The notes under the pieces were generated by a model that saw only the letters and a list, made by a program, of their open reading frames with translations, had not been told where the DNA came from and did not search any database. Made by a program: the position numbers and the translations under genes. From Pseudomonadota bacterium (GTDB lineage Bacteria > Pseudomonadota > Gammaproteobacteria > Burkholderiales > Rhodocyclaceae), in NCBI GenBank assembly GCA_018241725.1, contig JAFEDI010000097.1:1-64000 (forward strand): a stretch of 64,000 nucleotides of DNA, given 5' to 3'. Positions 43,129 to 50,567 of this stretch are shown piece by piece (within the stretch, counting starts at the first letter, position 1; the number at the start of each line of letters is the position of its first letter).

Positions 43129-43446
43129 TCAGTTCGTGTCGAACACGGTTTCCGTGCCGCCGCGCTGCCCGCGGTTGTCGAGCCAGGTCACCCCCAGCTT
43201 GTCGCCGGCCTTGACGTCCTGGAACTGGAAGCTGAATAGGGGATCAGCCGACAAGGCCGTACCGAGCCCGGCCTCCATGACTGGGCGGCCGTTGAGGCTC
43301 AGCGTCAGCGAGGTGATGTAGTGGGCGGGAATGGTCTGCCCCGCCAGATCATGGCGCAGGCCCGATTCCATTGGGTGGGGGATCAGCAGCCGGACTTCTC
43401 CCATGTTGCCCTTCAGTGTTGCGCGGATCTTGATCGAATCGGCCAT
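43129..43446 (-). CDS. soxZ: Sulfur carrier complex protein SoxZ
   Basis: A 105-residue periplasmic-type immunoglobulin-fold protein without its own signal peptide, which is normal because SoxZ is exported with SoxY. It opens KIRATLKGNMGEVRLLIPHPMESG and has FQDVKAGDKLGVTWLDNRG. SoxYZ carries sulfur intermediates during thiosulfate oxidation. It lies 9 bases after soxY. The rest of the sox pathway is not in this window. Confidence 0.95.
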   Translation of the reverse strand: MADSIKIRATLKGNMGEVRLLIPHPMESGLRHDLAGQTIPAHYITSLTLSLNGRPVMEAGLGTALSADPLFSFQFQDVKAGDKLGVTWLDNRGQRGGTETVFDTN

Positions 43447-43455
43447 GGTCGCTCG

Positions 43456-43920
43456 TTACTCTCCGCAGCCGCCGACGGTGACTTTCACGTCCCGGAACAC
43501 GGTGTAGAACCTGCCGCCGGCAGCGGCCACCAAGCGCAGGCGCGAACTTTCGGCCATCTTTATCCGGGTCTGGAAGCGCGGCAGCATTTCCGGGCCGAAG
43601 TTGAACTGTACGACGAGGGGGAAGGGGTTCTTGTCCACCAGCACGCTCAGCTGGGTGGTACCCGGAATGGCGCTGATGCCTTCGATCGGCACGGCGGCGC
43701 CGTTCTCGGCGATTTCCGGCGCACGAATGGTCAATGCGGGGTTCTGTTCCGCGGCGCCGGCTCCGAGCAGGCGCAGGGCATCGAGGGCTGTCCGGGCTTC
43801 GAAGGCGGCCCGTCCGCTTTCCGCGGCGAGCGCTGCCTGGGGCTTCAGCAGGCCGGTGCCGACGAGAGGGAGCAGGGCCGTGGCGGAGCCGAAGGCCTGC
43901 AGAAAGCTCCGGCGGCGCAT
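43456..43920 (-). CDS. soxY: Sulfur carrier protein SoxY
   Basis: A 154-residue Tat-exported protein. RRRSFLQAFG is a twin-arginine signal, cleaved near residue 33. The C-terminus carries the swinging sulfur-carrying cysteine in VGGCGE. The canonical ending is GGCGG; here the last residue is Glu. It is 3 bases after moaC and 9 before soxZ, so all three are one transcript. No soxAXBCD genes flank it, which suggests a partial or dispersed Sox system. Confidence 0.94.
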   Translation of the reverse strand: MRRRSFLQAFGSATALLPLVGTGLLKPQAALAAESGRAAFEARTALDALRLLGAGAAEQNPALTIRAPEIAENGAAVPIEGISAIPGTTQLSVLVDKNPFPLVVQFNFGPEMLPRFQTRIKMAESSRLRLVAAAGGRFYTVFRDVKVTVGGCGE

Positions 43921-45895: not shown

Positions 45896-46534
45896 TCAGA
45901 TCATCTGGCCGTAACGGGTGTACAGCGCCCATACCAGGTCGGCAAAGGCGCGCTGGTTGAAGCGCGGTCGTCCGCTGACCGCCAGCACCAGCCGTGTGCG
46001 CCCCACATGCATGGGCCAGAAGCTGAGGCCACTGACGCCTGCAGCATCGACGTTTCCCCAACCGTCGAGAAGATGGGCCCCCAACTGCGCCAGTGGAGTA
46101 GCCTGCCGTTCGGCGACCGACAGGATGTCGGCCCCAACGGCAGCCAGTGCATCACCGATGTCGGCTGCGTAGCCGGTAACCGCCAGGCAGAAGCCCTGGT
46201 GATCGGCAAGCAAGGCCTGGCCGCTATCGCTGAGTACGGCCAGATACTGGGGCAGGGTGGTTCCCAATGCGCCGGTTGGTGCGCTGTGAGGCGATGGCCA
46301 GGCTTCCAGGCTGGCGTCGTCCTGCAGGGACAGGAGGGTTTCCAGCGCTTTCTCCGGTGATGCTTCCCCGCTCCACATGGTGGCCATCTCCAAGTTCAGC
46401 AGCGGACTTTCAGCCTCCTGCAGGATGCTGCGCAGGACTCGCCGCCTGGGACAGCCGTCGTCGGCACGGGCAACGGCCTGCCAGGCACCGTAGGGCGTGA
46501 CGGCGAGATGGGAGCCGGGGACGATTTCAAGCAT
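45896..46534 (-). CDS. Hypothetical protein with helix-turn-helix and roadblock-like halves
   Basis: A 212-residue soluble protein, last gene of a seven-gene cluster. Residues about 30-75 form a compact helical region resembling a winged helix (RRRVLRSILQEAESP...). Residues about 95-210 follow the roadblock/LC7 pattern: LPQYLAVLSDSGQALLA, AADIGDALAAVGADILSVAE, and strands FWPMHVGRTRLVLAV. Both readings are inference. It overlaps the GTPase gene by 8 bases, and roadblock proteins are the standard regulators of such GTPases, which supports the assignment. Confidence 0.6.
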   Translation of the reverse strand: MLEIVPGSHLAVTPYGAWQAVARADDGCPRRRVLRSILQEAESPLLNLEMATMWSGEASPEKALETLLSLQDDASLEAWPSPHSAPTGALGTTLPQYLAVLSDSGQALLADHQGFCLAVTGYAADIGDALAAVGADILSVAERQATPLAQLGAHLLDGWGNVDAAGVSGLSFWPMHVGRTRLVLAVSGRPRFNQRAFADLVWALYTRYGQMI

Positions 46535-47087
46535 CGCTCAGTCCAGGATTGAGAGTGAAGAGAAGTGCCTTCACCAGCATTGCCACGTCATCGCGGCTAC
46601 GGGCGTCGACGCGGAAGACGGCGGGTGTGGGGGTATGCCCGAGTTCGGCCAGACGAGCCCGGTACGCATCCAGACCTGGAGCCGGTGCGCGGTCCATATG
46701 GGTGACACCGATGGTGACGGCAGTGCCGGCGATGAAGTTCGAGAAGGCGCCCAGGTAGTTCTCCAGGTCGGTCAGAGGTTCAGGCTGGGCGTTGTTGATC
46801 AGCAGGATCAGGCCAATCCCGCCGTTGCTGAGAATCTCCCACATGAAGCTGAAGCGTTCCTGGCCCGGAGTGCCGTAGAGCATGACCTTCTCTCCGCCGG
46901 GCAGGTTGAGTACGCCGTAGTCCATGGCGACGGTGGTGGTTTTCTTCATGCCGGCGATCTCGTCGGTGGCCAGCGCTTCGGTGCTGACCGGCAGGATGTC
47001 GCTCAAGGCATTGATGGCAGTGCTTTTGCCGGCACCCACTGTGCCGGAGAAGATGATCTTATTGTGACGGACGCGTTCAGACAGCAT
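46527..47087 (-). CDS. MglA/CvnD-like small GTPase (COG2229 type)
   Basis: A 186-residue Ras-like GTPase. The P-loop GTVGAGKS is at 15-22. The switch region has KKTTTVAMDYG at 48-58, the G3 motif reads YGTPGQERF (71-79) instead of the usual DxxG, and the G4 motif is THMD (129-132). TTVAMD(F/Y)G plus GTPGQ(D/E)RF is the hallmark of the COG2229 group that includes the conservon protein CvnD. It lies between a pseudo-receiver gene (11-base overlap) and a roadblock-like gene (8-base overlap). A role in signalling or cell polarity is likely by analogy. Confidence 0.9.
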   Translation of the reverse strand: MLSERVRHNKIIFSGTVGAGKSTAINALSDILPVSTEALATDEIAGMKKTTTVAMDYGVLNLPGGEKVMLYGTPGQERFSFMWEILSNGGIGLILLINNAQPEPLTDLENYLGAFSNFIAGTAVTIGVTHMDRAPAPGLDAYRARLAELGHTPTPAVFRVDARSRDDVAMLVKALLFTLNPGLSDA

Positions 47088-48210
47088 TGAGAAGTTTCCT
47101 CAGAATGCGGGAAAGGATGGAGGGACGTTGGGGTGGAATGAGGGGCGCGACATCGTTGGCCGGTTGTGCAGGGGGCGAGATCGCCGCAAGGGGCTCGGGC
47201 TGGAACAGTCCGGCAAAGTGAGCGGATGTATACGCCGAGAATACGTAGCGTTGCGGAATCTCGAGCCGTCTCGCGATCTCCACCGGGCTGGCCCACTCGC
47301 GGGTCCATAGCGCAACGATCCTCAGCGCATGCGGTGCGGCCCAGGTCCGCGTGAAGTTGGGCCAGGCACGCAGGCGAACGGGACGATAGGGATCGACCCC
47401 GGCCGGGAGGCGGCCGCGGGCCGCCCATGCTGCAATGTTCCACAGGAAGTCTTCGGCAGTGTGGAGCGTGTCCGTGCTGCCTGGACCGCTGAAGGTCAGG
47501 GCATTGACAACGCGCGCTGTGGCATCCGGCAACTGGGCCATGGAGAAAGGACGCAATTGCGTGTCACGGAAGCTGGTTACGCAGACGGGCTGAGGCAAGG
47601 GGGGGACGCCGATCAGGCGGGGTAGGCCCGACACGACGTGGGGGCGGCCGGTCTTGATCGCTTCATCCAGGGCCTGGGCCAGATGCCCGATCAGGTATTG
47701 GGTGGGTTCGAAAAACAGCTTGGCGGGCAGAGGGGCGCCGGGCGAGGGCGGTATATCGTCGAGTGAGCCGCACAGATCCGGTTCCTCGTCACTGACCCAT
47801 GGGCGGGGCTCGCTGCTCTCCTGGATCGCCATGTTGGTCAGGGCGACCGGCTGCAGAGGGCGTCCGAGGAGGGCGGCCCGGTTCAGTACGCCGGGCAGTG
47901 CATCCAGATTGAGAGGCTTGCTGACCGTGAGATGGTGCGGAAAGCGGGTTTGCAGGCTCTCGGGTCGGAACGCATAGCCGACAACACCGATCCCGGGGTG
48001 GCGGGCCAATTGGTTCAGGGCTTCGTCGACACCGGGGCGGTCATGATCCACGAGGACAACGTCGGCTTCATCAAGGGACTGTGCCAGGCGGATGCTCTGC
48101 TTCCAGTGCCGTTCGATGGAGAGTCCGATCAAGCGGTTATCCATGCTTCCGATGTGCAGCAGGAAGACGGCGGTCGGGGCCGGGGCGAGGACGGGTGAAG
48201 GGCGGCTCAT
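47077..48210 (-). CDS. Pseudo-receiver protein with C-terminal winged helix
   Basis: A 377-residue soluble protein I do not recognise by name. The N-terminal 120 residues resemble a receiver domain: VFLLHIG, a DVVLVDHDRPG segment where the phosphoacceptor Asp would be, GVVGYAF and a VSKPL lysine. The middle region is Pro-rich and variable. Near the end, LWTREWASPVEIARRLEIPQ looks like a helix-turn-helix, followed by a Pro-rich linker and a basic C-terminus. The receiver and helix-turn-helix calls are inference from pattern. Its end overlaps the GTPase start by 11 bases. Confidence 0.7.
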   Translation of the reverse strand: MSRPSPVLAPAPTAVFLLHIGSMDNRLIGLSIERHWKQSIRLAQSLDEADVVLVDHDRPGVDEALNQLARHPGIGVVGYAFRPESLQTRFPHHLTVSKPLNLDALPGVLNRAALLGRPLQPVALTNMAIQESSEPRPWVSDEEPDLCGSLDDIPPSPGAPLPAKLFFEPTQYLIGHLAQALDEAIKTGRPHVVSGLPRLIGVPPLPQPVCVTSFRDTQLRPFSMAQLPDATARVVNALTFSGPGSTDTLHTAEDFLWNIAAWAARGRLPAGVDPYRPVRLRAWPNFTRTWAAPHALRIVALWTREWASPVEIARRLEIPQRYVFSAYTSAHFAGLFQPEPLAAISPPAQPANDVAPLIPPQRPSILSRILRKLLNAV

Positions 48211-48245
48211 GGTGTTGAGGCGGGGCAGGTATCCACAGAAAGGAC

Positions 48246-48737
48246 TCAGGGGGTACGGGACATGCTGGCAGGTGAGGCGTGGATCGGTGCAGACCGGAGG
48301 AAGGCACGGTTTCCTTCCACCGGTCTGGCGAGCACAACGCCGCGCAGGGCGAGCTGGGGATCGTGGCGATCAACGCCGCGGTGCAGGCGGGCGTGCAGAT
48401 AGATATCCAGATTGTGCTGCTCCAGCGCCCCGTGATGCTGGCGGAGCATGCGAGTCCGCAGATCGAGTCCGCATGCTCCGAGGGCGATCCACAGGTCTAC
48501 GACCGCTGCTGCGGTCTGGGCAGGATTGCCGAGTGCGTGCCAGACTGAGATCCGTTGCATGTGGGCATGGAGGTTTCCCGGGTGACGTCCGATCTCACCG
48601 GCCAGCAGCGTGGCGGTTGCCGGTGAGCGCCAGACCGCCGCGATGTCCAGCGTTCGGACCGGGAGGCCGAAATCCGCCGGTGGGGCAGGTTCCTGCAGCC
48701 GCTCAGGGGCGTCGGGGATCGTGATGAAGATGTTCAC
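48246..48737 (-). CDS. Hypothetical protein in the GTPase cluster
   Basis: A 163-residue soluble protein of unknown family. The best reason to accept it is the GTGA overlap of its GTG start with the stop of the preceding binding-protein gene. The central part (TATLLAGEIGRHPGNLHAHM..., QTAAAVVDLWIALGA) is helical. The last 60 residues are His/Arg rich and may be disordered. 35 bases separate it from the pseudo-receiver gene. Confidence 0.6.
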   Translation of the reverse strand: MNIFITIPDAPERLQEPAPPADFGLPVRTLDIAAVWRSPATATLLAGEIGRHPGNLHAHMQRISVWHALGNPAQTAAAVVDLWIALGACGLDLRTRMLRQHHGALEQHNLDIYLHARLHRGVDRHDPQLALRGVVLARPVEGNRAFLRSAPIHASPASMSRTP

Positions 48738-49480
48738 TGGGTCAGAGTGGAAATGATGTCGATCATGAACTCCACGTCTTCCTGCTGGATGGGTTGCCAG
48801 CGGGTGGCGCCGAGTGCCGACAGCAGATCCTGCCCCTTTTCCGTTTCGTGCATGGACAGCAGGATGCGTACGAAATCGTCGGCCCGGGAATGTAGGTCGC
48901 GGCCGATCAGGAAGACATGATGGATGACCTGAATGTCACTGGTGACCAGGACCTTGAGCTCCCGCCGGACGATGGAGGACAGGCCCCGATAGGCGCCCAC
49001 CGGCATGAAGCCCACATCGACCTGGCCGCGCAGGACGTCCTTGGCGACCTGGATGTAAGTGCCGCGTTGTTGTTCGACGGTGTTGTCCGCATTCAGATTG
49101 GCGGGTTCGAGCAGGATCCGGCCGATTGTATTGACGCACGGATCATTGGCGCAGGCGATACGGGTTCCGGGTTGAAGATCGCCGATGGCCTGAGCAGGGT
49201 GGCCGAGTGCCGTGACGACAACCATTTCGTCGGGAGCGCCATCCGGCTGCGCGATGGCGCGAAAGCCCTTCTCCCTGACCAGAAGGGAGGCGTCGAAGGG
49301 GTTGGCATGAATCAGGTCCACCTGTCCCGCTGCGATCGCAGCCCGTTGCGCGTCGAAACCGTCGTGGAGTTCCAGGTGGATGGGGATCGACAGGGAACGC
49401 TGCAACCAGGTGTTGAAGATGTACCAGTCGGAAATGCGCTCGGCTGGAAAGCTGGGGCTGACGGTGAAGTTGAAGCTCAT
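48734..49480 (-). CDS. Cytosolic PhnD-like binding-protein domain
   Basis: A 248-residue protein with the fold of PhnD-type phosphonate-binding proteins: the early FPAERISDWYIFNTWLQR, then HDGFDAQRAAIAAGQVDLIHANPFDASLLV, and AKDVLRGQVDVGFMPVGAYR. It has no signal peptide, so it should be cytosolic and act as a ligand sensor, not a transporter part. There is no phn permease nearby. The chosen ATG overlaps the stop of the PAS gene (ATGA); an in-frame GTG 4 codons upstream is possible. Confidence 0.82.
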   Translation of the reverse strand: MSFNFTVSPSFPAERISDWYIFNTWLQRSLSIPIHLELHDGFDAQRAAIAAGQVDLIHANPFDASLLVREKGFRAIAQPDGAPDEMVVVTALGHPAQAIGDLQPGTRIACANDPCVNTIGRILLEPANLNADNTVEQQRGTYIQVAKDVLRGQVDVGFMPVGAYRGLSSIVRRELKVLVTSDIQVIHHVFLIGRDLHSRADDFVRILLSMHETEKGQDLLSALGATRWQPIQQEDVEFMIDIISTLTQ

Positions 49481-49956
49481 GACCGGATCCACTCCCTGTA
49501 AGTCGCTTCTGCCTGGGCCACTTTCTCACGGGAGGGTTCCCGCCGGACCGAGGTATACCCGACGATGCGTTCGTCCCGAACGTTGGGGACCACTGTGGCG
49601 AACACCCAGTAGTGGCCCCCATCCTTGCGGAGGTTCTTCACGTAACCGTGCCATTGGCGCCCGGCCTGGACTGTTTCCCACAGATCGCGGAAGGCGGCGG
49701 CAGGCATGTCTGGATGACGCAGCAGGCAGTGGGGCTGGCCGATCAACTCGCTGCGCTCGTAACCCGACATGTCCACGAAGGACTGGTTGCATTGGGTGAT
49801 GATGCCGCGTGTGTCGGTACGTGAAACGATCAGCCGGCCCTGCGGGTAAGGCGTTTCGACATGAGTCACGAAAACCCGGCGGCTGCTGCCGTCGGCATAG
49901 TCCAGGCGATGCTCGATGGCGCCGCCTGCGTTGGAGAGAGGAGGCATGTCGAGCAT
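49477..49956 (-). CDS. PAS domain protein (Aer-like)
   Basis: A 159-residue single PAS domain protein. The domain runs about 40-145 and has SRTDTRGIITQCNQSFVDMSGY, then LIGQPHCLLRHPDMP and WHGYVKNLRKDGGHYWVFATV, which is close to the FAD-binding PAS of the aerotaxis receptor Aer. No output domain is fused, so it must signal through a partner. AAGGAG precedes the chosen ATG. It lies between the roadblock gene (13 bases) and the PhnD-like gene (4-base overlap). Confidence 0.9.
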   Translation of the reverse strand: MLDMPPLSNAGGAIEHRLDYADGSSRRVFVTHVETPYPQGRLIVSRTDTRGIITQCNQSFVDMSGYERSELIGQPHCLLRHPDMPAAAFRDLWETVQAGRQWHGYVKNLRKDGGHYWVFATVVPNVRDERIVGYTSVRREPSREKVAQAEATYREWIRS

Positions 49957-49969
49957 CGTGAACTCCTTG

Positions 49970-50341
49970 TCAGCCGAGAATGCCGCCGATCGCGTCAGCC
50001 GCGCGGCGTACGTCGAGAAATACCAAGCCCAGCTTGGCCGTAGGCTTGGCCATGACGGTGAGTACTGCATCGGTGCCTGCCTGAACCATCAGCACGTAGC
50101 CCTTGGCGCCCTTGATCAGAACCTGTTCGAGGTTGCCGCGGGCCAGTTCCCGGGCGGTGCGGTCCCCCAGGGACAGCATGGCGGCGCTCATCGCGCCGAC
50201 CCGGTCTTCGTCCACGGTATTGGGCAGCAGGGCCGCCATCATCAGCCCGTCGGAGGAAATGATGGCCGAGGCCTCTATATCCGCTGAGCTTCCGTTCAGG
50301 TCGTTGAGTACGGTTTGAAGCATGTCGGATCGCATTTGCAT
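49970..50341 (-). CDS. Roadblock/LC7 domain protein
   Basis: A 123-residue protein made of one roadblock/LC7 domain: MLQTVLNDLNGSSADIEASAIIS opens it, followed by DGLMMAALLPNTVDEDRVGAMSAAML and GYVLMVQAGTDAVLTVMA. Roadblock proteins of the MglB/CvnB type bind and regulate Ras-like GTPases. It is the first gene of the cluster whose GTPase is four genes downstream. I prefer the ATG at 50341; a further ATG at 50413 would add 24 residues without a ribosome binding site. Confidence 0.88.
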   Translation of the reverse strand: MQMRSDMLQTVLNDLNGSSADIEASAIISSDGLMMAALLPNTVDEDRVGAMSAAMLSLGDRTARELARGNLEQVLIKGAKGYVLMVQAGTDAVLTVMAKPTAKLGLVFLDVRRAADAIGGILG

Positions 50342-50567
50342 CACTTTCAAGGTCGATTTTCTGTAGAGATCTGCCTGAGCCGGTGAGGCGGAAAGCAGGT
50401 CCGGGAATCCCATTCGTTTAGGTGTTTTGAATTGTTTCTGAATGTCATTATTCCATATGTTTTGAGGGTGTATAAGGGTGTCGTCGGGGGATTGTCGATG
50501 TCCGGCTCGATAATGGGGCCTCGCGTTAGAATCGCGGTTTGATTGCCTCAGCGCGAGATGGAGCTAG
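50342..50567. promoter_or_regulatory. Divergent region, roadblock cluster and tusA
   Basis: A 226-base gap less GC-rich than its surroundings around 50420-50470. It must carry the promoter of the GTPase cluster (minus) and of tusA (plus). TTATAC on the minus strand near 50470-50475 and TAGAAT on the plus strand (50527-50532) are possible -10 elements, without clear -35 partners. Confidence 0.3.

Follow-up and report, generated by a model that had tools for sequence, protein, structure and literature searches.

The seven adjacent genes analyzed here lie on the minus strand of a 64,000-nucleotide stretch of DNA from a bacterium of the Rhodocyclaceae (contig JAFEDI010000097.1, hereafter the window), where they run from position 50341 down to 45896 and are named g1 to g7 in order of transcription. 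We propose that they are a single operon whose products make up a G-protein signalling system in the cytoplasm, of the type known as MglA Group 3. This would be a switch without a histidine kinase that reads redox state and a small ligand and acts through g5, perhaps also on type IV pili. Taken jointly, operon and mechanism are given a probability of roughly 0.55. All seven genes are intact. At four of the six junctions the neighbours overlap; of the other two, g4–g5 is spaced by 35 bases and the remaining one by 13. The domain assignments made in a preliminary description of the cluster were supported by Pfam, profile searches and predicted folds. In Pfam, g1 matched roadblock, g2 PAS, g3 Phosphonate-bd and g6 GTPase families; g4, g5 and g7 had no significant match.

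The GTPase and its roadblock partners

The product of g6 (46527..47087, 186 aa) is a Ras-like small GTPase with GTVGAGKS in G1, TT in G2, GTPGQ in G3, THMD in G4 and DAR in G5. MglA Groups 2 and 3 are described as having GTPGQ in G3, Thr for Arg in G2, a G4 that has lost its Lys and DAR in G5, and Group 3 as being almost exclusively beta/gamma-proteobacterial and encoded with a receiver/winged helix-turn-helix (HTH) protein and one or two MglB proteins (Wuichet and Sogaard-Andersen 2014, PMC4316618). Group 1 is marked by TVPGQ in G3 and an intrinsic Arg in its G2, and g6 has neither. Residues were counted in alignments of g1, g5, g6 and g7 from which distant phyla, fragments and near-identical loci of the genus were omitted. 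In the 79 GTPase rows, G2 was Thr-Thr (78 and 77 rows), GTPGQ was kept in G3 (Thr in 75, Gln in 77), Arg, His or Gln stood in the Lys place of G4 in 66 and G5 kept Asp and Arg in 77 each. A phmmer search with the GTPase gave weak matches, the best being Rab18 at E 0.021.

In a midpoint-rooted tree of 90 GTPases, with long branches flagged, an 80-row clade was separated from the actinobacterial and cyanobacterial rows with support of 99/99. This clade held every proteobacterial row except one from Mariprofundaceae (L144), plus one Verrucomicrobiaceae row; 16 of 19 loci of the genus and seven other named loci were omitted by choice, and a weak match from genome G042 was included. The GTPase thus has a clade apart from actinobacterial Group 2, and with it go the motifs, a receiver/winged-HTH partner and two coupled MglB proteins. 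As regards coupling, g7 adjoins g6, and g1 has four genes between it and g6 in the window but directly follows g7 in loci of the order g4-g5-g6-g7-g1-g2-g3. By motifs, tree and partners the system is classified as Group 3 MglA/MglB.

The first MglB-type protein, g1 (49970..50341, 123 aa), matched Robl_LC7 in Pfam at 6.3e-16 and roadblock structures including CvnB5 and MglB in a profile search, and 56/56 rows kept the Asp-Gly pair that MglB of Groups 2-5 has. The second, g7 (45896..46534, 212 aa), is more divergent. The Gly of the pair was kept in 42/42 rows and the preceding Asp in only 3/42, the window copy being among those that lack it. The preliminary description had called g7 roadblock-like, which was borne out by a predicted model (pLDDT 92.7) with an N-terminal domain of about 85 residues followed by a roadblock fold, whose best structural alignments were to roadblock and MglB structures. 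A comparison of the g7 and g1 profiles with hhalign was weak (probability 9.5, E 0.0034), and the roadblock assignment of g7 rests on the other evidence. It may serve as a partner that is not a GTPase-activating protein (GAP); in Myxococcus, the GAP activity of MglB is described as being stimulated by a further protein, RomY (PMC9481161).

The PAS and PhnD-like proteins

The closest structure to g2 (49477..49956, 159 aa) was the PAS domain of the aerotaxis receptor Aer (PDB 8dik, 1.7e-36), to which it aligned without gaps. FAD in Aer is reported to be contacted by His53, Arg57, Trp70, Asn85 and Arg115 and also by T27 and M69 (PMC9668731). Through the gapless alignment the first five map to H76, R80, W93, N108 and R138 of g2, and these were invariant in 17/17 sequences. 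The redox potential reported for the FAD of Aer is near -290 mV. No HAMP or signalling domain was found in the 159 residues, for which Pfam gave PAS models only. Hence g2 is predicted to be a stand-alone Aer-type PAS protein that binds FAD and reports redox state, which strengthens an earlier suggestion that the PAS protein follows redox or energy state.

The start of g3 (48734..49480, 248 aa; PF12974 2.6e-37) overlaps g2. A profile search with g3 returned the structures of PtxB, ArrX and AioX, and phmmer with the single sequence found no relative (best E 0.83). The open frame is 263 aa for a protein of 248 aa whose N-terminus falls at the first strand, so that an export signal would not fit in the window copy. 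Among 36 copies, 13 had fewer than 20 in-frame upstream codons; the other 23 have more room and their start was chosen by the analyst. The STS-His motif described for phosphite binding (PMC5700983) was not kept in g3. In a sequence alignment, the window copy has C-V at the corresponding places and 12/20 sequences have D-V or D-I, and the place of the His was Tyr in 16/20 and His in 3/20. The fold family and the lack of an export signal given in the preliminary description stand, and on sequence grounds the name PhnD-like denotes fold family only.

Conservation of the gene set

The GTPase was present in 20 of 23 genomes of the genus, own genome included; the remaining three (G010, G012 and G014) were without GTPase, g3 and g7. 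Among 37 other genomes of the family and order, just two gave a GTPase match, weak in both cases (G042 and G049). All seven genes occurred in the same order at 13 of 19 further loci of the genus and the other six were cut by contig ends, one of them (G017) showing g1–g5 and the first 28 GTPase residues at the end of another contig. The genus also harbours shorter paralogous modules (L051-L062), which consist of g4-g5-g6-g7 in 5/12, g5-g6 in 6/12 and the GTPase alone in 1/12; g1, g2 and g3 were found at none of these. Several modules lie, by eye, beside a metal-efflux RND-like set and a two-component system. Two of the paralogous GTPases have an altered G3, GTPGR at L059:7776-8300 and GPPGQ at L062:7603-8091, the latter with a deletion, and are possibly degenerate.

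Outside the genus, the 80 loci best resembling the window GTPase were taken from at least 585 relatives, such that the proportions below are not population rates; a gene was counted as present if it matched at E 1e-4 or better and lay within 6.5 kb of the GTPase on the same strand. All seven genes were found at 12 of the 80, including methanotrophs, Sphaerotilus and Halothiobacillus; Methylotuvimicrobium buryatense 5G (L070) and Sphaerotilus natans (L083) are among the carriers. One further locus (L095) had g4 at 1e-3 and was not counted as full, and two (L085 and L065) end at contig edges. In 11 of the 12 the order was g4-g5-g6-g7-g1-g2-g3, a circular permutation of that in the window; the remaining one, L068, reads g4-g7-g1-g6-g5-g2-g3 with an extra, separate PAS match upstream. 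PAS and PhnD-like genes occurred together at 15 of the 80, always with the PhnD-like gene directly after the PAS gene, and PAS without PhnD-like was not seen. A g1-type roadblock accompanied the GTPase at 63 loci, g5 at 42, g7 at 35 and g4 at 20.

The set was also approached from the PAS side by searching 185 genomes of the class, own genome included, with a g2 profile, scoring at most 20 first-look candidates per genome (out of 66 in the own genome). Hits at E 1e-40 or better were bimodal. Seven lay at 5.8e-79 or better in frames of 157-203 residues, followed by 72 at 8.6e-53 and weaker, 58 of which sat in frames of at least 500 residues, as expected for chemoreceptors, and 14 in shorter ones. 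The g2-type PAS was hence present in 6 of the 184 other genomes, and all six had g1, g3 and g7 in the same cluster, with g2 and g3 side by side, and five of them the GTPase. Four of these loci held all seven genes, another started with the GTPase at the edge of its contig, and the last (L183, genome G205) had no GTPase match. A g3 profile at 1e-60 picked out 9/185 genomes, namely the seven with g2-type PAS plus G085 and G231, in which none of the other cluster genes was found within the 13 kb fetched around the match. The seven-gene set thus travels together across distant lineages and in more than one arrangement, with exceptions; such co-occurrence had been named beforehand as support for one system, and it was found both in the 12 full loci and in the class-sample clusters.

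When the 22 tree rows with a PAS and/or PhnD-like gene near the GTPase were labelled, 10 changes were needed, of which well-supported branches force four; shuffled labels gave a mean of 20. Repeated gain or loss of these genes is likely and not proved, because some absences are contig cuts. Other genes join some clusters. Protoglobin genes, which add another type of sensor, were found in five (L067, L072, L079, L090 and L184; Pfam 2.8e-20 or better), and a 157-residue gene between g7 and g1 (L076:9255-9725), V4R-like by eye, had no Pfam match. A class I adenylate cyclase-like gene, also named by eye, lies downstream of the seven-gene cluster of a Methylomonas (L066:11518-14313).

Proposed mechanism and output

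It is proposed that g2 would bind FAD and report redox state and that g3 would bind a small cytosolic ligand or pair with g2 as a two-protein sensor. Together these would bias the roadblock pair g1 and g7, which in turn would set the GTP/GDP state of g6. The GTPase could then act on g5 and thereby on gene expression. By way of FimV/HubP or of g4, the TPR-like protein, it could also reach a polar machine, for which type IV pili are the likeliest candidate. In this scheme the wiring, the ligand and the output are all conjectural. If true, redox state would be coupled to a Ras-like switch with no kinase in between, which word searches of open-licence papers did not turn up.

The protein g5 (47077..48210, 377 aa) consists, by conserved sequence blocks, of an N-terminal receiver-like domain with D55, D57, K98 and P99, a linker and a conserved C-terminal, winged-HTH-like region. 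It had been labelled a pseudo-receiver, which is not clear from the residues, as Asp55 was kept in 46/52 and Lys98 in 48/52 sequences, and the Ser/Thr place was Ser or Thr in 39/52 and Ala in the window copy. The receiver/winged-HTH family of Group 3 has been described, and gene regulation has been proposed for Group 3 (PMC4316618). This is in line with a purely transcriptional output in which the GTPase state gates g5 and neither pili nor polarity is involved, as are the rank of g5 as the commonest partner after the g1-type roadblock and the position of several paralogous modules of the genus beside efflux-like genes (by eye).

Such an output is quite possible, if doubtful, as three lines of evidence point beyond transcription. 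Firstly, genes for FimV/HubP, with at least one domain over the cut-off, adjoin the cluster at six loci, five among the best 80 (L075, L082 with two, L083, L086 and L099) and one of the six in the class sample (L187). Secondly, g4 (48246..48737, 163 aa) is hard to reconcile with a pure transcription switch. Its AF2 model has helices only (pLDDT 83.3) and resembled mostly TPR and other helical-repeat proteins with middling Z (best 8.7), which for a helical model is not decisive; TPR families matched its relatives weakly and the window copy not at all. More distant relatives of g4 are longer or membrane-anchored, and membrane-anchored ones fill its place in several more loci. Thirdly, in Snodgrassella, which has a Group 3 system, mutation of an orphan mglB changed a form of motility attributed by the authors to type IV pili; in their re-analysis of Tn-seq data the three mglB genes of this organism were beneficial for gut colonisation (PMC11112851). 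Type IV pili are a reasonable candidate output given the FimV/HubP neighbours, the Snodgrassella mutant and the own genome, in which one FimV_core match and three PilT-family matches exceeded the cut-off.

Several observations weigh against the proposed switch. Two of the Aer contacts, T27 and M69, are replaced in g2 (R50 and L92). The FimV connection is one of neighbourhood only, and FimV likeness of g4 itself is weak, with FimV_Cterm in 4/26 relatives (best 8.6e-4) and absent from the window copy. The motif upstream of g1, described below, showed no regulon. PhnD-like genes occur without an intact PAS gene at three of the best 80 loci (L073, L100 at a contig end and L102 with a truncated PAS), and solitary PhnD-like relatives exist (L189 and L190, and in the genus L145, L146, L148 and L150). 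Many Group 3 loci have neither gene, from which it follows that the pair is optional. Finally, G205 retains six genes of the cluster, both sensors among them, with no GTPase match anywhere in its genome, and carries between g7 and g1 another PhnD-like gene, which is of the solitary type.

The solitary relatives, the many loci without both genes and G205 would fit the PAS and PhnD-like genes being passengers, that is, co-transcribed sensors that act on something else. We consider this unlikely, since all six other class-sample genomes with a g2-type PAS have it in such a cluster, the PAS/PhnD-like pair remains in the cluster when the gene order changes, and some clusters include protoglobin genes as well. 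The solitary protein of the genus has 242 residues, begins ...LSVCPHDTAKN and lies away from the GTPase cluster in the neighbourhoods read, which were four of seven stretches fetched. Copies similar to it stand beside roadblock genes at L073.

Substrate-binding folds that lack an export signal act as enzymes elsewhere, as in MqnA/MqnD. That g3 is likewise a cytosolic enzyme, or else a relic of transport, is compatible with its loss of the phosphite STS-His contacts. It is distinctly improbable given that g3 is conserved beside PAS and roadblock genes and that no transporter genes were noticed among the flanking genes, which were read by eye and not surveyed.

Acquisition of a true conservon from actinobacteria, with which the operon shares a GTPase and roadblock core and the GTPGQ and DAR motifs, is contradicted by the tree and by the missing parts and can be set aside as extremely improbable.

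The proposed switch may be one instance of a widespread kinase-free pathway, in which soluble sensors that can replace one another (FAD-PAS, protoglobin and the cytosolic substrate-binding protein) would act directly on a roadblock-gated Ras-like GTPase driving a receiver-HTH regulator and FimV/HubP landmarks, such that surface energy taxis could occur without a chemoreceptor array. We regard this extension as rather doubtful.

Comparison with known systems

The window resembles described Group 3 systems in its GTPase motifs, its receiver/winged-HTH partner, its number of MglB proteins and its beta/gamma-proteobacterial setting, and the core of GTPase, receiver-HTH and MglB was indeed described in 2014 (PMC4316618). 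That account, as far as its text on Group 3 goes, names no PAS, PhnD-like, TPR, protoglobin or FimV partner, and the term 'PAS domain' occurs 0 times in its full text; here, in contrast, the conserved set includes g2, g3 and g4. In word searches of open-licence papers, no report was found of the input module of Aer-type PAS and PhnD-like protein, of sensor exchange in Group 3 or of the signal sensed by Group 3 MglA systems. A predicted soluble flavin sensor in the same operon as GTPase and roadblock proteins would offer a concrete input that can be purified, and the FimV/HubP genes beside some relatives hint at the possible output. The operon is accordingly a possible link from the energy state of the cell to surface motility or gene control, and, unlike the described relatives, it is made testable by its own predicted flavin sensor and ligand-binding-like protein.

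The mgl operon of Snodgrassella and Neisseria has a Group 3 mglA beside a closer and a more distant mglB (PMC11112851), which we equate with g1 and g7. The Snodgrassella locus L081 reads g5-g6-g7-g1; no PAS or PhnD-like gene was found there, and the TPR protein encoded with it is membrane-anchored, unlike g4. The Myxococcus system of MglA, MglB and RomY shares the Ras-like GTPase and MglB and is described as having a stimulating partner and as controlling the pole and type IV pili (PMC9481161); its GTPase is of Group 1, with the intrinsic Arg and TVPGQ absent in g6. The PAS domain of E. coli Aer is like g2 in sequence and in the five FAD contacts (PMC9668731), whereas Aer carries HAMP and chemoreceptor domains and g2 is a free PAS protein.

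Actinobacterial conservons, or AGPS, likewise combine a small GTPase with a roadblock protein, and their accessory proteins are proposed to be sensors or modulators (PMC13343842). Membership of the operon among conservons (MglA Group 2) was rejected. They contain the histidine kinase CvnA and CvnC; among family matches up to E 1, the seven proteins gave neither a histidine kinase nor a CvnC-type family. G4 of g6 is THMD and not NxFD, and its clade is a different one. The conservon-like label of the preliminary description therefore holds for how the system may work and not for its descent or parts, which fit Group 3.

Upstream element and other features of the window

A promoter-like element of the extended -10 type lies upstream of g1 on the minus strand (50443..50457), identified by aligning 15 upstream regions of the genus, which have TRTGRAATAATGAC in common. 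It resembles a sigma-70-like site in 9/12 bases with TG ahead of the second hexamer. A regulon for this motif was considered and rejected, the own genome having one copy within one mismatch, same-genus genomes up to two each (n=15) and other genera up to three (24 genomes in all). Owing to so few copies per genome, the element is taken as the promoter of the operon itself.

Scans of the window with Rfam and for tRNA were empty. By eye, the operon lies between tusA-like and valS-like genes at one end and, at the other, a gene resembling an M48 peptidase. Two small genes at 43129-43920, SoxZ- and SoxY-like by eye, lie near a moaC-like gene.

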